This document shows positions 9,401 to 26,670 of a DNA stretch of 64,000 bases, piece by piece. The position numbers were made by a program, and so were the translations under genes. Below the pieces are notes generated by a model. It worked only from the letters and a program-made list of their open reading frames with translations. It was not told the DNA's origin and made no database searches. This DNA comes from Clostridium sp. 12(A) (GTDB lineage Bacteria > Bacillota > Clostridia > Lachnospirales > Lachnospiraceae), in the NCBI GenBank assembly GCA_000526575.1, contig JAGI01000001.1, positions 248,001 to 312,000 of the forward strand, written 5' to 3'. Each line of letters opens with the position of its first letter. The stretch's first letter is position 1.

Positions 9401-9697
9401 TTATTTGTAGCACCCCATTTTGCAGATGTTGGTTACGTAAGGTCTTGATTTTTCTTTATCTTTTTCCTTATCCTTGCAAAAGGGTTTGAAAATAGATACC
9501 ATGGTAATCGCATTCTGCGGCGGTCTGGTCATGAAGGTGGAATTGCAGATGAATCGAAAGTTGATTCCGCAGGATTCCTGAGTGGATACCAGATAAGGCT
9601 TATAGGTGGTACCCCTTAGGTCCCTGGTCGCTTCATGAAAGATCACCAGGTCCTTGCAGTTAACGTCACGGTAGAAGGAATAGCCCTGGCAGCTCAT
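9401..9697 (-). CDS. Small hypothetical protein, possibly frameshifted near its end
   Basis: Not recognised. The 98-residue product is Cys-rich (NCKD, ESCG, FICN, KPFC, NICK, MGCY) and has a lysine/aspartate run near its end. A good ribosome site (AAAGGAG, 9 nt before the ATG) supports translation. It follows the MBL hydrolase gene on the same strand after 76 bp. Just before its stop, a second open frame on this strand continues from about 9412 to a stop at 9247 (WGATNKIFNAVTFILLQDFF and onward). A single frameshift would give a product of about 150 residues, so this copy may be truncated or there may be a sequencing error. Confidence 0.5.
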   Translation of the reverse strand: MSCQGYSFYRDVNCKDLVIFHEATRDLRGTTYKPYLVSTQESCGINFRFICNSTFMTRPPQNAITMVSIFKPFCKDKEKDKEKSRPYVTNICKMGCYK

Positions 9698-17641: not shown

Positions 17642-18811
17642 GTGAAAAGAACATTTGAATTAATCGCACCCTGTCATTTTGGCATGGAAGCGGTATTAAA
17701 AAAAGAAATAACAGATTTAGGATATGACATTACAACCGTTGAAGATGGAAGAGTGACATTTATTGGTGATGATGAAGCCATCTGCCGGGCAAATATCTTT
17801 CTTCGTACCGCAGAGCGTGTGCTTTTAAAGGCAGGCACCTTTCATGCGGAATCCTTTGAGGATCTTTTTCAGGGAACAAAATCCATTGCCTGGGAGGAGT
17901 ATATTCCCCAGGACGGTAAATTCTGGGTTGCCAAGGCTTCCTCGATAAAGAGTAAGCTGTTTAGTCCCTCTGACATTCAGTCCATCATGAAAAAGGCAAT
18001 GGTGGAACGAATGAAAAAGTCTTACGGTGTGGAATGGTTCGAAGAAAAAGGAAGCTCTTATCCTATCAGGGTATTTCTTTATAAAGATGAGGTAACTGTG
18101 GGAATCGATACCACAGGAGATTCTCTTCATAAGAGAGGCTACAGAACCCTTACCAGTAAGGCTCCTATTACAGAGACTCTTGCAGCAGCCCTCATTATGC
18201 TGACTCCATGGAATAAGGATCGTATTTTAGTGGACCCGTTCTGCGGTAGCGGTACCTTTTTAATTGAAGCGGCTATGATGGCTGCGAATATGGCTCCTGG
18301 CATGAATCGTTCCTTCCTTTCCGAAGACTGGAAGAATCTGATTCCAAGAAAATGCTGGTACGATGCTATGGATGAAGCCAATGATCTGGTGGATCAGGAT
18401 GTAAAAGTAGATTTACAGGGATATGATATCGATCCTGAGATCATAAAAGCAGCAAAATCCAATGCAGCCTCTGCAGGCGTAGAGCATATGATCCATTTCC
18501 AGCAAAGACCAGTGAATGCATTAAGCCATCCGAAAAAATATGGATTTGTCATCACCAATCCGCCTTATGGTGAGCGAATTGAAGAGAAAAAGAATCTTCC
18601 TGAGCTCTACCGTCAGATCGGCGAGCGTTACAAAGCCCTTGATGCCTGGTCCCTGTATATGATCACGGCCTATGAAGACGCGGAAAAATACATTGGAAGA
18701 AAAGCAGATAAGAACCGTAAGATCTATAACGGTATGATGAAGACCTATTTCTATCAGTTTATGGGGCCAAAGCCTCCAAAAAGAAAAACAGGAGATTCGG
18801 TTGAAAATTAA
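17642..18811 (+). CDS. THUMP-domain class I SAM-dependent RNA (guanine-N2-) methyltransferase, YpsC/RlmL type
   Basis: A 389-residue RNA methyltransferase, probably of 23S rRNA. It has an N-terminal ferredoxin-like/THUMP part (IAPCHFGMEAVLKKEI to about residue 160, with LFSPSDIQSIMKKAMVERMK and VGIDTTGDSLHKRGYR). The catalytic domain follows with SAM motif VDPFCGSGTFLIEAA (about 197-211), QGYDIDPE (motif II) and catalytic ITNPPYGERI (about 304-313). It matches Bacillus YpsC, which corresponds to the methyltransferase part of E. coli RlmL. The start is GTG, 1 bp after the previous stop codon. It overlaps the next gene by 11 bp. Confidence 0.92.
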   Translation: MKRTFELIAPCHFGMEAVLKKEITDLGYDITTVEDGRVTFIGDDEAICRANIFLRTAERVLLKAGTFHAESFEDLFQGTKSIAWEEYIPQDGKFWVAKASSIKSKLFSPSDIQSIMKKAMVERMKKSYGVEWFEEKGSSYPIRVFLYKDEVTVGIDTTGDSLHKRGYRTLTSKAPITETLAAALIMLTPWNKDRILVDPFCGSGTFLIEAAMMAANMAPGMNRSFLSEDWKNLIPRKCWYDAMDEANDLVDQDVKVDLQGYDIDPEIIKAAKSNAASAGVEHMIHFQQRPVNALSHPKKYGFVITNPPYGERIEEKKNLPELYRQIGERYKALDAWSLYMITAYEDAEKYIGRKADKNRKIYNGMMKTYFYQFMGPKPPKRKTGDSVEN

Positions 18812-20120
18812 AAAATGGATTGCCGTCATTTTTTTCGCAGTCTGTAGTATCGTGGGATGTCAATACAAAACTCCCGAACAACCAGCAGCAGGAAAGGTGA
18901 CGGAATATAACGGTGCCCTTCCTGCCTCCTATGATGGGAGAAAAAAGGGCAGGGTGCCAGCCGTTAAAAACCAGGGAAACCTTGGAACCTGCTGGGCCTT
19001 TGCCTCCCTTCAGGCACTGGAGGCCAGCCTGCTGCCAGGAGAATCTAAGGATTTTTCCGAAGACCATATGTCCCTCGGGAATGGTTTTTCCATCCCTCAG
19101 GAAGAGGGCGGTGAATTCACCATGTCTTTAGCTTATCTCCTCTCCTGGAAGGGACCGGTTCTGGAAGAACAGGATCCTTATGGAGATGGCGTTTCTCCAA
19201 AGGGATTAAAAGCGGTCAAGCATGTCCAGGAAGTTCAGATGATTCCCGGTAAGGATTATGAAAAAATAAAACAGGCGGTTCTACGCTATGGCGGGGTACA
19301 GAGTTCCTTATATACCTCCATGACCGATGAAAACAGCCGTTCCGCCTCCTACAATGAAAAGGCATATGCGTATTGCTATATTGGCTCTGAGCCTCCAAAC
19401 CACGATTCTGTGATCATTGGCTGGGACGATGATTATCCCAAGGAGAATTTTAATGAGCCGGTGAACGGAAACGGGGCATTTATCTGTTTGAACAGCTGGG
19501 GGAAAGGCTTTGGAGAGCAGGGCTATTATTATGTGTCATATTATGATTCCAATATTGGAATGAATAATCTGGTATATTCCCTGACAGAAGATACGGACAA
19601 TTACAGCCATATCTATCAGTCTGATTTAAGAGGCTGGGTAGGACAGTTGGGGTATGGAGAAGATACCATCTGGATTTCCAATGTTTACGAAACAGGAGGT
19701 GATGAGGCTTTGTCTGCAGTTGGCTTTTATGCAACAGCTAAAAACACCTCCTATGAAATATATGGAGTGGGGAAGGTAAGTGACGAGGCTGCAATCGTAA
19801 GCGGCGGGGATTTCGACCGGAAGGTGCTGTTAGCAAAGGGGAGCTTTATCAATGCCGGTTATTATACGGTTCCTGTTACCGGCAGCTTAAAGGAAGAGCA
19901 AAAGCTTAATAAGGGAGAACGATTTGCGGTTATGGTAAAGATCACCACACCAGATGCCATCCACCCTGCTGCCATCGAGTATGATACAGGAGATGGGCGA
20001 ACCCTTGTGGACTTATCTGATGGGGAAGGCTATTTAAGCCCCGACGGCAATCACTGGGAGCGGGTGGAGAAAAAGCAGGACTGTAATCTTTGCTTAAAAG
20101 CGTATACGACAGACCGATAG
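18801..20120 (+). CDS. Papain-family (C1) cysteine peptidase lipoprotein
   Basis: A 439-residue exported lipoprotein. The signal peptide ends in the lipobox SIVGC (Cys20), so it is anchored to the outer membrane face. The papain domain has Cys64 in GNLGTCWAFASLQALEA, His in NHDSVIIGWDDDY (about residue 198) and Asn in LNSWGKGFGEQGYYYVSY (about 233): a complete triad. The C-terminal about 170 residues form a beta-rich lectin-like region (ALSAVGFYATAKNTSYEIY and following), common in clostridial C1 proteins. The start is TTG at 18801 with AGGAG 6 nt before it, inside the end of the methyltransferase gene. The substrate is unknown. Confidence 0.92.
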   Translation: MKIKKWIAVIFFAVCSIVGCQYKTPEQPAAGKVTEYNGALPASYDGRKKGRVPAVKNQGNLGTCWAFASLQALEASLLPGESKDFSEDHMSLGNGFSIPQEEGGEFTMSLAYLLSWKGPVLEEQDPYGDGVSPKGLKAVKHVQEVQMIPGKDYEKIKQAVLRYGGVQSSLYTSMTDENSRSASYNEKAYAYCYIGSEPPNHDSVIIGWDDDYPKENFNEPVNGNGAFICLNSWGKGFGEQGYYYVSYYDSNIGMNNLVYSLTEDTDNYSHIYQSDLRGWVGQLGYGEDTIWISNVYETGGDEALSAVGFYATAKNTSYEIYGVGKVSDEAAIVSGGDFDRKVLLAKGSFINAGYYTVPVTGSLKEEQKLNKGERFAVMVKITTPDAIHPAAIEYDTGDGRTLVDLSDGEGYLSPDGNHWERVEKKQDCNLCLKAYTTDR

Positions 20121-20754: not shown

Positions 20755-21246
20755 ATGAAAGTACTGATCGTCAGTGACACTCACAGAAAAGATGACAGCC
20801 TCTATAAGATTATTACAGAATCCGGCCCTTTTGATATGCTTATCCATCTTGGTGACTCGGAAGGAAGTGAGGAGAAGATTACCGGCTGGGCAGGGGAAAA
20901 CTGTCAGGTCCATATGGTTCTTGGGAACAATGACTTTTTTTCCGATCTTGACCGGGAAAAGGAGATTACTATCGGTAAATACAGGATTCTTTTAACTCAC
21001 GGCCATTATTACAATGTTTCTCTTGGCGTGGAACGTCTGGAGCTGGAGGCCAGGGAGAGGAATCTTGATATCGTTATGTATGGTCACACCCACCGTCCGT
21101 TTTATGAGGTACATAACGGAGTTATCGTTTTAAATCCAGGCAGCCTGTCTTATCCAAGGCAGGAGGGGCGTAAGCCATCTTATATGATCATGGAAGTGGA
21201 TGAGACGGGTGAGGCCCATTTTACCCTTAATTTCCTGGGAGCTTAA
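20755..21246 (+). CDS. YfcE/MJ0936-family metallophosphodiesterase (copy 2)
   Basis: A 163-residue calcineurin-like phosphodiesterase. Motifs: VSDTHRKDD (DxH), IHLGDSEGSEE (GDxxG), VLGNNDFFSD (GNND), LTHGHYYNV and YGHTHRPF, then LNPGSLSYPRQEGRKPSYM. It starts 1 bp after the rdgB stop, so the two are translationally coupled. It is shorter than the copy at 17092 and differs in the metal-motif flanks, so the substrates may differ. It is the last gene of the operon. Confidence 0.93.
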   Translation: MKVLIVSDTHRKDDSLYKIITESGPFDMLIHLGDSEGSEEKITGWAGENCQVHMVLGNNDFFSDLDREKEITIGKYRILLTHGHYYNVSLGVERLELEARERNLDIVMYGHTHRPFYEVHNGVIVLNPGSLSYPRQEGRKPSYMIMEVDETGEAHFTLNFLGA

Positions 21247-21254
21247 GAAAGGAG

Positions 21255-21320
21255 AGAGATAACTGGAAATACCGCTTATTGCCGGATCTGGCATAGTAGT
21301 GTTCCGGTTGTCTCTTTTTT
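21255..21320 (+). terminator. Operon terminator
   Basis: AGAGATAACTGGAA and TTCCGGTTGTCTCT pair (two G-T pairs) around an inner TGCCGGATCTGGCA hairpin, followed by TTTTTT. Confidence 0.85.
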
Positions 21321-21373
21321 AATTGTGTAAAATGGTTCACATTTCTTTACTTTTATGAATCGTTTGATTTTTT

Positions 21374-21402
21374 ACTTTCGTTCAACCTTTTGCAGATATA
21401 AT
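21374..21402 (+). promoter_or_regulatory. Promoter of the two-component operon with conserved response box
   Basis: The -10 TATAAT is at 21397-21402. The -35 position is occupied by ACTTTCGTTCAACCTT (21374-21389), which recurs unchanged at 23223-23238 at the same distance (23 bp) from a -10 box. An activator site replacing the -35 box is the natural reading. Confidence 0.7.
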
Positions 21403-21430
21403 GTATATTAACTTTTAAAGGAGGGCATGT

Positions 21431-22126
21431 ATGGTTACAATTCTTATCGTAGAAGATGATCAGATGGTACGTCTTTTAACGAAAACAAAACTTAGTCACC
21501 TATATAAAATAAAAGAAGCTGCTGATGGCGAAGAAGCGTTAGAAGTTCTCGACCACGTACATGTTGATCTACTCATTGTGGATATTCAAATGCCAAACAT
21601 GAATGGATATGAGTTAGTACGTGCCCTGCGGGATGTGGGTGATATGACACCAGTCATTATGCTGACGGCGATGAATACCTTTACACACAAAAAAGAAGGA
21701 TTTGCATCCGGCGTAGATGATTACATGACAAAACCCATCGACTACGAGGAACTTATTTGGCGTATTAAGGCACTGATGAGGCGAGCACAGATTGCTAACG
21801 AAAACCGTATCGTTATAGGTGGTTTTACTATGGAACAGAACACTTTATCAACTCAGTATAACGGCGAAACGATCTCGTTGACAAACAAGGAATTCAACCT
21901 GCTGTACAAGTTTCTCTCCTACCCCAATGTGGTATTCACCAAACAGCAGCTAATGGACGGGATTTGGGGATGTGATTCTGAGACAGAGTACGATACTATT
22001 AAAACCTACATCAGCCGCCTGCGCAACAAGCTTTCGATGTGCAGAGAATTCGAGTTGGTATCCATTCGCGGACTGGGATATAAAGCTGTCATTCATAAGA
22101 TAGGAGGCAGCCATGAAACAGTATAA
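21431..22126 (+). CDS. OmpR-family response regulator
   Basis: A 231-residue regulator. The receiver domain spans residues 1-120, with acidic residues in VEDDQ, phosphoacceptor Asp51 in LLIVDIQMPNMNG and Lys in DDYMTKPIDYEEL (about 101). The OmpR winged-helix domain is at about 130-225 (LTNKEFNLLYKFLSYPNVVF, TIKTYISRLRNKL, RGLGYKAVI). It has an AAAGGAGGGCATGT site. It overlaps the kinase gene by 14 bp. The box in its own promoter recurs before the peptide/SnoaL-like genes, so it probably controls itself and them. Confidence 0.95.
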   Translation: MVTILIVEDDQMVRLLTKTKLSHLYKIKEAADGEEALEVLDHVHVDLLIVDIQMPNMNGYELVRALRDVGDMTPVIMLTAMNTFTHKKEGFASGVDDYMTKPIDYEELIWRIKALMRRAQIANENRIVIGGFTMEQNTLSTQYNGETISLTNKEFNLLYKFLSYPNVVFTKQQLMDGIWGCDSETEYDTIKTYISRLRNKLSMCREFELVSIRGLGYKAVIHKIGGSHETV

Positions 22127-23147
22127 AAAAGAATCAACCTTTAAACTGATTCAATTTAAGTGGGTTTTCGTTGCAGACTCAATCGTAGTTGTTGGTGCTG
22201 TGATGGCCTATGGGCTTATTGCTACATGCTGGCTTGGCATGAATTCGGAAAATGCGCTTTCTATGCTGGCAATCATACCACTTATGATTCTTGCAGTCAG
22301 TTTGGGAACGGTTTTCACACTGCGGTCTGTTCGCAGAAAAATGGATGATCTGTTAATTGGTATAAAAGAAGTATCCAATGGCAATCTGGACGTACAGCTA
22401 GACTGCAAAAAGGCAGATGAATATGCACCAATCTATGATGGGTTTAATCGTATGGCAGCAGAGCTTAAAAATACAAAAACAGAAATGCAAAACTTTATCA
22501 ATGATTTTTCACATGAATTCAATACACCTATTACTTCAATTTCAGGATTTGCACAATACCTTATTGACACAGGAGATGACATAGAAAACACGGAACGCAA
22601 TCAATATCTTCAGATCATTGCCGATGAATCTCTTCGTTTGTCCACCTTGTCGCAGTCCACACTTCTGCTTTCCAAGGTGGAGGCCTGCGAAATTATCACC
22701 GAAAAAGAAGCATACAATTTATCCGAACAAATAAAGCGGTGTGCTATCCTGCTGCTGCCGAAAATTGAACAGAAGAAGATAGAGCTGGAACTGGATGTAG
22801 ACGATATTTGTTATGTGGGCAATGCGGAGCTGATGGAACAGGTATGGATTAATGTTCTTACTAATGCCATTAAATTCACCCCTGAACATGGAGAAATTAA
22901 AATAGCCGCAAAGTGTACCTCTAATGAGATTACTCTTAAATTTTTCGACAGCGGTGTAGGTATGGACGAAGAAACCGCCGCACATATTTTTGAAAAATAT
23001 TATCAGCACGATACTACCTCTGCCGTAAGAGGCAGCGGTATTGGCCTTTCCATTGTTTCCCGCATTATTACTCTTTGTGGGGGTAGCATTTGCGTAGAAA
23101 GTAAACCTCAAGAGGGAAGTACCTTTTTAATCACGTTACCCATCTAA
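22113..23147 (+). CDS. HAMP-domain sensor histidine kinase
   Basis: A 344-residue membrane kinase, partner of the response regulator just upstream. Two membrane helices at about residues 17-40 and 47-70 enclose only a few extracellular residues, so it may sense a membrane-borne or intramembrane signal rather than a large ligand. HAMP follows at about 70-120. The HisKA domain has His134 in FINDFSHEFNTPITSISGFA. The ATPase domain has EQVWINVLTNAIKFTP (N box, about 247-262), FDSGVGMDE (G1), FEKYYQH (F) and GSGIGLSIV (G2). It is followed by a strong terminator, which separates it from the peptide gene. Confidence 0.95.
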   Translation: MKQYKKESTFKLIQFKWVFVADSIVVVGAVMAYGLIATCWLGMNSENALSMLAIIPLMILAVSLGTVFTLRSVRRKMDDLLIGIKEVSNGNLDVQLDCKKADEYAPIYDGFNRMAAELKNTKTEMQNFINDFSHEFNTPITSISGFAQYLIDTGDDIENTERNQYLQIIADESLRLSTLSQSTLLLSKVEACEIITEKEAYNLSEQIKRCAILLLPKIEQKKIELELDVDDICYVGNAELMEQVWINVLTNAIKFTPEHGEIKIAAKCTSNEITLKFFDSGVGMDEETAAHIFEKYYQHDTTSAVRGSGIGLSIVSRIITLCGGSICVESKPQEGSTFLITLPI

Positions 23148-23157
23148 GGAATGGAAA

Positions 23158-23199
23158 AAAAAGCGTAAATCAGACGTATGTTTGGTTTACGCTTTTTTT
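23158..23199 (+). terminator. Terminator after the histidine kinase
   Basis: AAGCGTAAA and TTTACGCTT form the stem, with A and T tracts on either side. Confidence 0.88.
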
Positions 23200-23222
23200 C
23201 TTTCATAATTTTTGCTTTTTTT

Positions 23223-23251
23223 ACTTTCGTTCAACCTTCGCCCATTAAGAT
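23223..23251 (+). promoter_or_regulatory. Second copy of the response box, promoter of the peptide/SnoaL-like genes
   Basis: ACTTTCGTTCAACCTT at 23223-23238 is identical to the box at 21374-21389. The putative -10 (TAAGAT, 23246-23251) lies at the same 23-bp offset. The AT-rich DNA before the box is also similar in the two places. Confidence 0.7.
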
Positions 23252-23303
23252 ATGTTCATAGCACGAAATCACAACAGCAATATCAAGGAAGGAGATTGAC
23301 TAT

Positions 23304-23399
23304 ATGGCATTTCAGCTGCAAAATATGTGCCACTGCAATAATCATGGATTTCCAGTCCTTGCCTTATGTATGACGGCAGATATAAAAGCAAGTATTTGA
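23304..23399 (+). CDS. 31-residue Cys-containing peptide ORF
   Basis: The first translatable frame after the response-box promoter. It has a strong ribosome site (AAGGAAGGAG, 9 nt before the ATG). The peptide begins MAFQLQNMCHCNNHGF and continues with a short hydrophobic stretch (PVLALCM); it has three Cys and two His. The start and stop are clear, but nothing similar is recognised. It could be a signal peptide-like pheromone, a leader peptide or a small metal-binding peptide; it could also be an untranslated leader with a chance ribosome site. The SnoaL-like gene follows after 42 bp. Confidence 0.45.
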   Translation: MAFQLQNMCHCNNHGFPVLALCMTADIKASI

Positions 23400-23441
23400 A
23401 AAAACAAACTTTAGATTAACATTTTGAAAGGAAGTACAATT

Positions 23442-23948
23442 ATGAATAATTACAATGTTAAAAATCAGATGGATAAGGCCGGCATTGTGGATACCTATGC
23501 CCTTATAGATGAAATGACTAGCCAGACCACGTACCAGACGGCACTAGAGGAAGCTATCCGCAACCGTTTAGAAAATGGCTTTAAAAACTGGAATGGTGGC
23601 TATGACGGCTGGCTTGAGTGGTGTAACACTTTATATGAGCCGGATGCATATTACAACATTCCTTATAATGGTACCCAGCGCCGCTGTACACTGGAAGAGT
23701 ACAAGAGCATGATGGGACAGCTTTTTCAACATTTCACAATGGAACTGGGCAAATTTGACAACATGATCATTAAAGATAACTGGTGTGCAATTCGCTATAC
23801 TGTGAAGGTGAAAAATTTAGACACTGGTACAGAAATCCTCCAGCATACCATGGAGTTCGTAAGATTCAAGGACAATGGTGATGAGCGCGGAGTCAGAGTT
23901 GTAGAGGGGTGGGCGTTGTCCGACAGTCCGTTATCCATAAAACAATAA
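23442..23948 (+). CDS. SnoaL/NTF2-like protein, single domain, cytoplasmic
   Basis: A 168-residue protein with no signal peptide. Its core follows the SnoaL/NTF2-like pattern: a helical part (EEAIRNRLENGFKNWNGGYDGW), a turn with LYEPDAYYNIP, and closing strands (DNMIIKDNWCAIRYTVKV, HTMEFVRFKD, VRVVEGWAL). The helical motif NGFxNWNxGxDxW also occurs twice in the next gene's lipoprotein, so the three domains are one local family. AAAGGAAG precedes the ATG at 23442; an earlier start at 23424 is less likely. It is driven by the response-box promoter. The ligand or reaction is unknown. Confidence 0.8.
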   Translation: MNNYNVKNQMDKAGIVDTYALIDEMTSQTTYQTALEEAIRNRLENGFKNWNGGYDGWLEWCNTLYEPDAYYNIPYNGTQRRCTLEEYKSMMGQLFQHFTMELGKFDNMIIKDNWCAIRYTVKVKNLDTGTEILQHTMEFVRFKDNGDERGVRVVEGWALSDSPLSIKQ

Positions 23949-23992
23949 GCCAATAGACTCGTTTAGATTATGAGAGGAGAATTATTACGAAA

Positions 23993-25093
23993 ATGAATAT
24001 AAAAAAGGTATTAAGAATGAGTGTAACAACCTTGGCCATCGGGGCTGCTGCTGTTGGATGTGGATCCAAAACCAATACGATTGTTACCAAAGAAGCCACA
24101 AACATAAGCTCCGATGAATCTGTGATCAGTATCTCCGATCGCTATGATAACACGAAAGAACTTTCTGCTGTTTTTCCAATCGTCAATCCCACCCCAATAG
24201 AAACAGACATGGAAAAAAATATTCAAAATAGATTATTAAATGGGTTTGAAAACTGGAACAGAGGCTATGATGCGTGGGAAAAATGGGGCGACATTCTGTA
24301 CACCGATGATTCCTTTTATAACGTCCACGGTGTAAGACTCACCTTGAAGGAATATCAGTCTTCCATGAATGCGACACTGAAGTCCAGCGATATTCAGATG
24401 GGTAATTTCAATAATATGATCATCTGCGGCGACTGGGCTGCAATTCGATATGATATATCAACCACCGACCGACAGACCAGAAAATCTTCGGATGGGAGTG
24501 TGATGGAGTTTGTACAATTCAAGGATTACGGAGAGGAACTGGGGACTAGGGTTGTGGAAGGCTGGGCTGGAACCAAGGGCGCGGACTTTGATGGTTTGAC
24601 TGGTTTCCAGACCGACGATGCGAAAGCGGCACAGCAGGAGGCATTAAATGCCATCGTCAATACAGTGATTCCTGATACATTAAATCTTAAAGACAAGTAT
24701 CCTGTCACCAATCCTACGCCGATTGAAACCGATATGGCTAAGAAGATTCAAAATGCTATATTAAATGATTTTGAAAACTGGAATCAAGGCTTGGATGCTT
24801 GGACGGCATGGGCAGACACCTATTATGACAGCAACCTGCAGTATCATACCAACGACGCTACCATGACCTTATCGGATTACAAAACATTGGAGAAGAACAA
24901 TGCCGAATCAACGAATGTAAAACGTATTCGCTTTGATAATATGCTAATCAGCGGAGATTGGGCGGCCATTCATTATAGAATCACTAAACAGGATTCAACG
25001 ACCGGAGAAAAGACTGCCGGTGATGTGATGCAGTTCCTGCATTTTAAAGAGGACGGCGACAGCGTGAAAGTGACTGAGTGCTGGACAAAATAA
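23993..25093 (+). CDS. Lipoprotein with two tandem SnoaL/NTF2-like domains
   Basis: A 366-residue surface lipoprotein. The signal peptide ends at lipobox AAAVGC (Cys23). Domain 1 (about 60-205) and domain 2 (about 235-366) each begin with the same phrase, NPTPIETDM(E/A)K, then NGFENWNRGYDAW or NDFENWNQGLDAW, and end in GDWAAIRYDIS / GDWAAIHYRIT and a (V)MEF or (V)MQF strand. The domains resemble the cytoplasmic protein encoded just upstream. Tandem NTF2-like domains on an anchored lipoprotein suggest capture of a small or peptide ligand outside the cell. AGGAG lies about 15 nt before the ATG, rather far. The gene is followed by a large palindrome. Confidence 0.82.
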   Translation: MNIKKVLRMSVTTLAIGAAAVGCGSKTNTIVTKEATNISSDESVISISDRYDNTKELSAVFPIVNPTPIETDMEKNIQNRLLNGFENWNRGYDAWEKWGDILYTDDSFYNVHGVRLTLKEYQSSMNATLKSSDIQMGNFNNMIICGDWAAIRYDISTTDRQTRKSSDGSVMEFVQFKDYGEELGTRVVEGWAGTKGADFDGLTGFQTDDAKAAQQEALNAIVNTVIPDTLNLKDKYPVTNPTPIETDMAKKIQNAILNDFENWNQGLDAWTAWADTYYDSNLQYHTNDATMTLSDYKTLEKNNAESTNVKRIRFDNMLISGDWAAIHYRITKQDSTTGEKTAGDVMQFLHFKEDGDSVKVTECWTK

Positions 25094-25117
25094 GCCCATG
25101 TATTTATGTTAATAAAA

Positions 25118-25215
25118 GGGGGTGTTGCAAGATGAAAAGAACCTACAAGACATGCTATTTAGACGTTTAATAAACACACGTGCCTTGTATGAAAATTTCA
25201 TTTTGTAACACCCCC
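25118..25215. repeat. 98-bp palindromic element, terminator or MITE-like
   Basis: The outer arms (25118-25137 and 25196-25215) pair at 18 of 20 positions (GGGGGTGTTGCAAGATGAAA with its partner). Inner bases (TACAAG / CTTGTA) extend the hairpin. A 12-codon frame starts at 25132 inside the arm. It lies between the convergent lipoprotein and GH4 genes, so it may terminate both; its size and perfection also fit a small non-autonomous element. Confidence 0.55.
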
Positions 25216-25272
25216 AGTTTTAAATATAGTTACTCCTGAGATAAAATAAACGCAGCCTGTTGTGCTTGGCTG

Positions 25273-26670
25273 TTATTTCCAGCCATCTGGCAGATATGCC
25301 ATGGTATTTGCGATCATATCATCGGCGAGAGTCTTGATTTCTTCCTCTGTGGCTCTTCCCTTTACCAGAGGATCGGCTAAAAAGGCATCGTAGACCAGAG
25401 AACGGTCGCAGGTAAGGGCAGCGTTTAAGATGCGCTCATGATTGTCTACGTGAGGCTTAATCAGCTCCAGAACATTCTCTGGGATAGCTCCGGCCACAAT
25501 AGGCTTAATGCTGTCACGGTCAAAGGCAGCGTTGGTCTCAACGATGGCATCTGCAGGGAGATTTGGAATCTGTAAATACGTATTGGGAATATTTACATTG
25601 CTGATGGTCCGCTCCAGGCCGCAGAGAGACTTGATTAAAAGAATTCCTTCCTCTCCCGATGGCTTTAATTCTATTTTTTCTTCTCCAGTGACCAGGCGGT
25701 GGCTCTTTTCCAGTCGTGTCTTTAAATCTTCTTTTCTCCATGCAACGGTAGTAAGATTGAATTTCCAGCTTTTTGTTGTTTCCGGATTTTTTAAATATTC
25801 ATCTCCTGGCATGAATTCAGCCAGGTGACGGTCACCGGCTGCTGCGATCAGGCCGTAGCGGCGGAATAAATCAAATTTCAGACGATGAGCACATTCAAAG
25901 GTACTGTTTGCCCAGTTCTTATCCGGCTCATTGTAGCCTTCTTCGTAATGAGAATCGATGTAATCGCGATAAACGGGGAATAAATCGATTCCTTTGTAGG
26001 AAGCCTGGTCAAACCATGTAAAGTGGTTGATACCAAGAACATTTACATGGATATCCTTTCGTTCCACATCCTTAAGACCGAGAAATTCTTCACAAATTCC
26101 CTTTAATACCTTCTGGGTGCCGAACACCTCGTGGCAGCAGCCAAAGGCCTTGATCTCCGGAAATACATGATACAGAGTTTTTACGCATAAGGACATTGGG
26201 TTTGTGTAGTTGATGACCCATGCCTTAGGTGCATATTCTTTTATGGCTTCGGCAATGGTAACAAATATAGGAATGGTGCGAAGAGCACGGATCATTCCGC
26301 CAGGGCCGGCAGTGTCGCCTACGGACTGATAGATGCCAAGTCTTTCCGGCAGATGAACGTCAGAAGCCATTTCATCAAAGGTACCTGGGAGAATAGAAAT
26401 CACTGCAAAATCGCATCCGGTCAAGGCATCCTTTAAAGAAGAGGAAGTTTCATACTTCCATTTCCCAATGGTGTCCTCTCTGGCTGAAAGCTGATTGCCG
26501 ATGATCTCGTTATTTTTAGAGGCAGACTCATCAATATCGTATAGCCGGATGGTACCGCTTAAGGAATCATCCATGGATAAGTCAGTCATAAAGGTCCAGG
26601 CCCAGCCTCTGGAGCCTCCGCCGATGTAGGCGATCTTTAAATCCGTGATCTTGTTATCAGAGTAATTCAT
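25273..26670 (-). CDS. GH4-family glycosidase, alpha-galacturonidase/alpha-glucosidase type (LplD-like)
   Basis: A 465-residue NAD- and metal-dependent GH4 enzyme. The nucleotide-binding motif is IAYIGGGSRGWAWTF (about residues 14-28). Other GH4 landmarks: DIDESASKNNE, GDTAGPGGMIRALRTIP, VINYTNPMSL and GCCHEVFG with the metal-binding Cys (about 177), then GINHFTWF with the metal His (about 208). Relatives such as LplD hydrolyse alpha-linked galacturonides; 6-phospho-glucosidases are other GH4 members. No phosphosugar transporter (PTS) is nearby, which favours a uronide-type substrate. It is divergent from an AraC regulator across a 28-bp palindrome. Confidence 0.88.
   Translation of the reverse strand: MNYSDNKITDLKIAYIGGGSRGWAWTFMTDLSMDDSLSGTIRLYDIDESASKNNEIIGNQLSAREDTIGKWKYETSSSLKDALTGCDFAVISILPGTFDEMASDVHLPERLGIYQSVGDTAGPGGMIRALRTIPIFVTIAEAIKEYAPKAWVINYTNPMSLCVKTLYHVFPEIKAFGCCHEVFGTQKVLKGICEEFLGLKDVERKDIHVNVLGINHFTWFDQASYKGIDLFPVYRDYIDSHYEEGYNEPDKNWANSTFECAHRLKFDLFRRYGLIAAAGDRHLAEFMPGDEYLKNPETTKSWKFNLTTVAWRKEDLKTRLEKSHRLVTGEEKIELKPSGEEGILLIKSLCGLERTISNVNIPNTYLQIPNLPADAIVETNAAFDRDSIKPIVAGAIPENVLELIKPHVDNHERILNAALTCDRSLVYDAFLADPLVKGRATEEEIKTLADDMIANTMAYLPDGWK

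Follow-up and report, generated by a model that had tools for sequence, protein, structure and literature searches.

The window analysed here is a stretch of 64,000 nucleotides from Clostridium sp. 12(A) (contig JAGI01000001.1, positions 248,001 to 312,000), whose genome comprises 4.6 Mb in three contigs. The element in question is a cassette of four genes at window positions 21322 to 25272, encoding a response regulator, a histidine kinase and two SnoaL-like proteins, of which one is a lipoprotein. The features of the cassette are as follows.

21322-25272, unstranded: inserted cassette, regulator/kinase operon plus SnoaL operon, without counterpart at the site in the three congeneric genomes examined
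21374-21391, + strand: operator 1, half-sites ACTTTCG (21374-21380) and ACCTTTT (21385-21391), 11 bp apart, over the -35 position
21397-21402, + strand: predicted -10 (TATAAT) of the regulator/kinase promoter, at the 23-bp offset common to 11 aligned sites
21431-22126, + strand: OmpR-type response regulator (Response_reg 2.5e-27, Trans_reg_C 5.8e-18), recognition helix EYDTIKTYISRLRNK
22113-23147, + strand: short-loop histidine kinase, two predicted transmembrane helices (~23-39 and ~48-64), then HAMP, HisKA and HATPase_c
23153-23201, + strand: strong T-tailed hairpin, probably the terminator separating the operons (-24.3 kcal/mol, z -7.3)
23223-23240, + strand: operator 2, half-sites ACTTTCG (23223-23229) and ACCTTCG (23234-23240), 6/7 identical, 11 bp apart
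23246-23251, + strand: predicted -10 (TAAGAT) of the SnoaL promoter, TAAGAT in 5/6 aligned SnoaL-side sites
23304-23399, + strand: 31-codon open reading frame (ORF) following the leader in the position of the first gene, unlikely to be a signal, ribosome site GGAAGGAGATTGA
23442-23948, + strand: single-domain, presumably cytoplasmic SnoaL/NTF2-like protein (SnoaL_2 8.5e-5, 23.5 bits)
23993-25093, + strand: lipoprotein with two SnoaL/NTF2-like domains (residues ~54-192 and ~232-365), signal sequence ending AAVGC
25118-25215, unstranded: fold-back at the cassette's 3' end, 98 bp long, its 20-bp terminal inverted repeats imperfect

The regulator joins a receiver to a Trans_reg_C domain and the kinase joins HisKA to HATPase_c, which is the make-up of an OmpR/PhoB-type two-component system. 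Generally, intramembrane-sensing histidine kinases have two transmembrane helices, fewer than about 25 residues between them and no outside domain. The window kinase belongs to this class by hydropathy and Pfam, since 8 residues lie between its two helices, in line with the short loop that the initial annotation had described, and no outside sensing domain was found by Pfam. Relatives were collected by a scan of named genomes with eight domains, which gave 87 related stretches, 80 of them kept as loci (numbered with L below; genomes with G), and among 27 SnoaL-linked kinases hydropathy assigned exactly two helices with 6-25 residues between them to 22, three segments to two, and fewer than two to the remaining three.

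The Pfam family SnoaL_2 (PF12680, gathering score 27 bits) matched the lipoprotein at 5.8e-7 and 30.5 bits, above that score, in one stretch only, in the second domain, while the single-domain protein with its 23.5 bits falls below it. No NCBIfam family was found for either protein, and no further copy of the domain in the host genome, both at E ≤0.1. The single-domain protein matches both lipoprotein domains, at 46% and 35% identity, and the predicted models have the NTF2/SnoaL alpha+beta fold in all three copies, so that the proposal of a single-domain protein beside a lipoprotein with two copies of the same domain holds. The motif NGFxNWNxGxDxW, which had been claimed for all three copies, is exact in two, while the third reads NDFENWNQGLDAW. 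Kinship with MBT repeats was also considered and rejected; all 14 PDB profile matches are MBT repeats of L3MBTL, reached via a short aromatic motif (best single-domain i-Evalue 0.38), and were judged to be chance because the predicted fold is NTF2-like.

A predicted tandem-repeat operator at both promoters

A 16-nt box, ACTTTCGTTCAACCTT, lies at 21374-21389 and 23223-23238, exact in both copies, and the distance from box start to the -10 (at 21397 and 23246) is 23 bp at both promoters, just as first reported. At ≤3 mismatches the window has no further place for the box, and shuffles at the same setting gave a mean of 0.76 places, with two or more in 17 of 100; the weight of the box evidence lies in its exactness and in the relatives, not in this loose window count. 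Across the whole genome, the 14-nt core at ≤2 mismatches occurs in 14 places (2 of them exact, the other 12 each with two mismatches), compared with 37 for the reversed control. The box is a direct repeat, ACYTTYG-N4-ACCTTYG (core ACYTT-N6-ACCTT), with an 11-bp period, and the self-match of the 11 aligned sites was 52/77 at lag 11, 43 at lag 12, 38 at lag 4 and at most 23 at nine other lags. Such half-sites, repeated in tandem at about 11 bp and placed close to the -35 position, fit, as expected, a predicted operator of the OmpR/PhoB type. A consensus promoter scan listed neither promoter (12 sites versus 11.7 expected), which fits promoters without a -35 element. Moreover, the SnoaL genes probably need a promoter of their own, because the strong terminator-like hairpin at 23153-23201 separates the operons; it was not listed by a simple terminator scan, and comparable inter-operon hairpins are present in L073, L080 and L077, with none in L078.

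In L073, L080, L077 and L078 the box at ≤3 mismatches lies upstream of the regulator as well as of the SnoaL-side operon, and these relatives also have other box places outside these promoters. In addition, L186 (G497), which is close to L077, carries the box at both promoters with 1 and 2 mismatches and the -10 at offset 23, so that all six loci whose kinase reaches 600 bits, the window among them, have a box at both promoters. In the alignment of 11 sites, a -10 lies at offset 23 throughout; agreement is 8-11 of 11 for the 16 columns of the box and the three T ahead of them, extends in the -10 only to T, A and the last T, and is 4-7 in most other columns; the single SnoaL-side -10 other than TAAGAT is TACCTT in L034. 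The recognition helix EYDTIKTYISRLRNK is common to the regulators of the six box-bearing loci compared (window, L073, L080, L077, L078 and L034; L186 lies outside this comparison), while the regulator of L090 has a recognition helix with three changes and a weaker box before the lipoprotein gene (position-weight score 11.6 versus 28-47 for the training sites). It is scarcely credible that the two boxes stem from a recent duplication or low-complexity sequence without regulatory role: T-runs do precede both sites, but the flanks differ, and relatives keep both boxes at a constant distance from differing -10 sequences. Taken with the OmpR/PhoB-like tandem repeat, the box at both promoters and the footprint in relatives make the predicted autoregulation and control of the SnoaL operon well supported, in agreement with the activator-type box at the -35 position that the initial annotation had proposed.

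A degenerate form of the box has the two module sites as its only exact places in the genomes of L073, L080 and L078; in the genome of L077 (G325) one of these sites matches exactly and the second with one mismatch, and in that of L034 (G327) the module site was not matched at ≤1 mismatch. Its other places in these five genomes are no commoner than in the reversed control, which suggests that the regulon would be confined to the cassette, as it seems. The box also follows the kinase, not the SnoaL gene. Among 295 genomes of a Paenibacillus-type family, 6 have the lipoprotein; 3 of these, and no others, encode a kinase scoring 600 bits or more, always beside the lipoprotein gene, and the next best kinase reaches 257 bits (scores were taken for the 7 best candidates of each genome). 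In the other three, which lack the kinase, the lipoproteins are 71-75% identical and the 6 kb read contains no box at ≤4 mismatches; L074 has no box near its lipoprotein gene. Relatives that keep SnoaL-like genes without both kinase and box had been named beforehand as evidence that would speak against the proposed module; such relatives do exist, but the box goes with the kinase. Upstream of the kinase-less lipoprotein genes in L071 and L072 (apparently the same genomes as L187 and L188), a similar stretch, CTTTAGTTCCC..AAAAGG..GATGCCCTTTTGTACGATGC, is perhaps another control element or a gene remnant.

Two further scans were made over the loci. A position-weight scan, trained on the 11 sites (close kin L073 and L080 among them) against a background set (L036-L068) that included L041, L049 and L056 themselves, gave weak sites before the SnoaL gene of L041 (9.4) and before the classical short-chain dehydrogenase/reductase (SDR) gene of L049 (11.7), and no site at the corresponding place in L053 and L099. 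A test for words common to the regulator and SnoaL upstream regions, only indicative as it missed the box of L078 and L080 (260-base limit or choice of start), had 7 of 33 pairs beating all 60 shuffles, namely L027, L032 (with its lipoprotein), L034, L041, L062, L073 and L077. The shared word is the box in L073 and L077, a gene-end copy in L032 and other A+T-rich sequence in L034 and L041, and this test gave no common box for the second kinase clade. In L062 the word AGCATATCCCAAAATYAATT, 19/20 identical, occurs upstream of the regulator (at 146 bp) and of the SnoaL gene (at 135 bp), and it is possible that it represents a different operator for the second clade; in L032, the copy of the SnoaL gene end before the regulator gene (9566-9676) is a trace of local duplication.

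The 31-codon ORF with its strong ribosome site GGAAGGAGATTGA is present at 23304-23399, as originally noted, and this open frame with a good ribosome site is what speaks for a functional Cys/His peptide that serves as a signal or binds metal. Such a role is nevertheless highly improbable, and the peptide was rejected as a conserved signal, since it has no relative in the 80 loci (best non-own E ~1), the ORF DNA has nothing similar in the fetched loci beyond 15-base words, and the ribosome site belongs to the leader. The leader behind the box has, down to GAAGGAGATTGA, counterparts in L080 (97% over 37 bases), L073 (84% over 83 bases) and L078 (by eye), while L077 and L186 have a different one. 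The next ATG after the leader is that of the lipoprotein in L073 and L080, of an SDR in L078 and of the 31-codon ORF in the window; because a like leader serves other genes in these three loci, the ribosome site before the ORF would most simply have been inherited with the leader.

Kinase relatives and the link to SDR genes

A two-component gene (regulator above 80 bits or kinase above 60 bits) is present in the stretch read at 31 of the 80 SnoaL loci and lies within 500 bp of the SnoaL gene in 24 of those 31, whereas random placement in flanks of up to 8 kb would put about one in sixteen within 500 bp by a rough estimate. In the host's own family, the single-domain protein has a match in 4 of 299 genomes, own included, while the kinase has matches in 20 of 299, led by the own kinase at 757 bits and four others at 339-358 bits (8 of the 19 non-own loci were read). 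These four kinases come from genomes without a SnoaL match, and all adjoin an extended and/or a classical SDR gene; the kinase read in G139 stands beside an extended SDR.

The window kinase groups with those of L073, L080, L077 and L078 in both trees (100/99). The first tree was sampled by nearness to SnoaL genes and is hence biased to SnoaL-linked kinases; for the enlarged one, 8 kinases were added and 7 rows dropped (six own-genome rows and L102), being long-branched or near such rows. In the enlarged tree the four kinases of 339-358 bits fall within the clade of the window, L034, L090 and L049 (12 rows, 100/99), and L056, L215 and three transporter-linked kinases join next (17 rows, 99/98). 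The last three (L213, L214 and L216, from G173, G220 and G188; 252-264 bits) adjoin what by eye is an apparent ABC transporter pair of an ATPase and a permease of 830-894 residues, so that the kinase family may have arisen in association with a transporter.

Sites resembling the operator also precede the SDR genes. The kinase-SDR slot of L211 contains ACTTTCGTTTTACTTT with TACACT at offset 23, those of L209 and L210 contain ACTTTAAATTTACCGA and ACTTTAAATTTACCAA with TATCCT at the same offset, and ACTTACAATTTACTTT with TATCTT at offset 23 lies upstream of the SDR in L215. An ACYTT-N6-ACYTT-like site (at least 8/10) with TAnnnT 23 bp after its start is thus present in 4/4 slots, compared with 0.016 expected per slot and never more than one of the four slots in 2000 shuffles, under a criterion set after the sites were seen and with L209 and L210 being close kin. 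In addition, L212 has a degenerate site before its classical SDR gene, and the repeat upstream of the L211 regulator lacks a -10 at the offset. As SDR-linked kinases lie inside the window clade and the repeat is found at SDR promoters, the kinases of this clade are therefore tied to a SnoaL/SDR gene group, not to SnoaL proteins as such.

The two gene types are associated in the SnoaL loci as well. Relatives of the extended SDR of L032 (E ≤1e-20) occur in 14 of the 80 loci, 7 of them in one ORF with SnoaL domains, and a classical SDR in 2 of 80. The best solved relative of the L032 SDR is 3wj7, a 'putative oxidoreductase' (5.4e-34), and its best NCBIfam model, HpnA, gave 181 bits against a cut-off of 368. 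With SDR genes behind box-like sites in the sister systems and with fusions of SDR to the double SnoaL domain, it is more likely that the SnoaL proteins are mainly an output, binding or converting a lipophilic compound, than an obligatory sensor.

The single ORFs (L075, L076, L079, L085, L086, L088 and L093) are 514-800 residues long, several being near-identical records, and their SDR part is of the NAD-dependent epimerase type, Pfam having been run on three of the seven; several have a two-component system downstream. As well, in 9 of 80 loci, including L032 (14111-14662) and L090 (11806-12342), a small protein family of about 180 residues (C12) is encoded next to a SnoaL gene or in its vicinity; neither Pfam, run on the L032 copy, nor NCBIfam, run on the L032 and L090 copies, gave a convincing match. 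Another protein, of membrane type and about 265 residues long, is present in 11 of 80 loci, directly after the kinase in L032 (11548-12336) and also in L093 (10723-11520), where the copy has no Pfam match.

The kinase, regulator, box and leader might also be a constant head driving whatever genes lie behind it, with SnoaL as one cargo among others. We regard such an exchange of cargo, taken by itself, as quite improbable; the leader is alike in the window, L073, L080 and L078 while the first gene differs, and SDR genes stand alone behind box-like sites in L209-L211 and L215, but the pairing of SnoaL with SDR genes is repeated next to two distinct kinase clades and within single ORFs, and the leader of L077 and L186 is a different one.

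Acquisition, proposed mechanism and known systems

In the sister genome G299, the flanks of the cassette are 93% and 95% identical, the alignment ends at window position 21321 and restarts at 25273, and 17 bp stand in place of the cassette; the stretch 21322-25272 is also missing from G300 and G310. Of 25 genomes of the genus, 2 have the lipoprotein gene, and these belong to a single species. This clean insertion without counterpart in sister species indicates horizontal acquisition of the cassette. By eye, no transposase was recognized among cassette ORFs of at least 60 residues, and carriage by a plasmid or phage was rejected, the lipoprotein having no match in plasmids and the single-domain protein none in phages.

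An Rfam scan of 20900-25600 gave no match reaching the gathering score. The terminal repeats of the fold-back at 25118-25215 read GGGGGTGTTGCAAGATGAAA, and the element has z -6.9 when folded as RNA; only two similar ends occur elsewhere in the genome, each with 2 mismatches, and by eye no transposase adjoins them in the 3 kb read. The fold-back could be a relic like a miniature inverted-repeat transposable element, or a terminator. A papain-family cysteine protease with a lectin-like domain is encoded at 18801-20120, two genes upstream of the insertion site.

The genes, insertion, footprint, recognition helix, predicted folds and neighbourhoods, all computed directly, are best read as a horizontally acquired, self-regulated two-component system with one dedicated SnoaL target operon, to which we give a probability of about 0.7. 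In this reading, a stimulus that probably acts within or at the membrane would lead the short-loop kinase to phosphorylate the OmpR-type regulator, a dimer of which may bind head-to-tail on the two 7-bp half-sites 11 bp apart and so replace the -35 element. The regulator would then switch on its own operon in positive feedback and, past the terminator, the SnoaL operon; we infer activation rather than repression here, as we do the phosphorelay, the ligand class and the role as enzyme or binder. As output, the cytoplasmic NTF2-like protein and the surface lipoprotein might bind some lipophilic small molecule or convert it, which would place them in one functional group with the SDR oxidoreductases of the sister systems.

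Several observations weigh against this reading. No two-component gene lies in the stretch read at 49 of the 80 SnoaL loci, an upper figure as several are short contigs, and L034 has the box before its SnoaL gene only. The SnoaL-side -10, TAAGAT, is poor, yet it is retained in relatives. At the SDR loci the repeat is degenerate and is missing before the L209 and L210 regulators and the L215 kinase, and the position-weight scan gave at most 4 in L209 and L215 and only 7.0 in L210, while the best site in L056 (8.0) faces away from the SnoaL gene. Furthermore, the cassette has no SDR and the best SDR match in the host genome is only 27% identical; the SnoaL proteins would therefore act without an SDR partner in this host.

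The regulator of the SaePQRS system of Staphylococcus aureus is likewise OmpR-type. Cassette and SaePQRS (PMC5083920) are further alike in a kinase of the intramembrane-sensing kind, a lipoprotein in the regulon, an autoinduced promoter, and an operator made of 5-bp direct repeats spaced by 6 bp, which read GTTAA-N6-GTTAA in SaePQRS and ACYTT-N6-ACCTT here. Unlike SaePQRS, the cassette lacks a second membrane protein of the SaeQ type, its operator sequence is different, its lipoprotein is SnoaL-like and encoded downstream in an operon of its own, and its target set is seemingly limited to the cassette. With the intramembrane-sensing kinases of Firmicutes the cassette shares the two transmembrane helices with about 8 residues between, but it has neither the ABC transporter nor the LiaF found with other such kinases. 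In BceRS-type systems a cognate ABC transporter is encoded beside the kinase, whereas the four cassette genes are those for the regulator, the kinase and two SnoaL-like proteins; LiaFSR-type systems combine a NarL/LuxR-type regulator with LiaF, whereas the cassette regulator is OmpR-type and there is no further membrane gene. Compared with the SnoaL/NTF2-like small-molecule enzymes SnoaL2 (8r2b), AclR (2gey), IdmH (6hnn) and Lsd19 (3rga), identity is about 18% and the protein here is exported, and the domain arrangement of Lsd19 is not matched by the lipoprotein model (root-mean-square deviation 17.6, TM score 0.29). ECF41 sigma factors (PMC8999054) likewise tie a SnoaL-like domain to signal transduction, as a fused regulatory domain, unlike the SnoaL proteins of the cassette, which are separate and lie behind a two-component system.

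These parallels bear on the proposal, made at the outset, that the lipoprotein captures a ligand outside as half of the sensor. It would bind the ligand and present it to the kinase, or restrain the kinase, with the SnoaL operon as a feedback arm. The lipoprotein is indeed encoded and co-regulated with a kinase almost without outside loop; SaeP and SaeQ, made from an autoinduced promoter, induce the phosphatase activity of SaeS, SaeP thus helping to restrain it (PMC5083920), and SnoaL-like domains are regulatory parts of ECF41 sigma factors (PMC8999054). The proposal is weakened, and we consider it unlikely: kinases of the clade are encoded next to SDR genes where the genome has no SnoaL match, and lipoproteins 71-75% identical are present where the kinase is absent. 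In addition, no lipobox-like sequence was seen in 8 of 26 double-domain homologues (start codons chosen mechanically), and 7 of 80 loci have ORFs that combine the double domain with an SDR. The lipoprotein may still take part in feedback, by analogy with SaeP.

Beyond the self-regulated system with its dedicated SnoaL operon, a wider picture is conceivable, though doubtful: the cassette may exemplify a new portable class of sensing unit with a constant head (short-loop kinase, OmpR-type regulator, tandem ACYTT-N6-ACCTT operator and fixed leader), mobile between Clostridia and Bacilli and with exchangeable SnoaL/SDR cargo, in which the exported double-NTF2 protein would be both a handler of lipophilic compounds and a feedback partner of the kinase.

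Each component is of a known kind, while the combination and the operator are new to us. As the initial annotation had surmised, no description of such a system was found in open-licence full texts, subscription papers lying outside the search. The cassette is apparently a real, self-contained and undescribed sensing unit and, to our knowledge, the first two-component system tied to SnoaL-like lipoproteins. For the kinase family there is now a predicted operator, together with a regulon of two promoters and a defined output, which makes its signal searchable with a simple reporter, and little-annotated NTF2-like proteins of gut and soil Firmicutes are linked to SDR oxidoreductases.

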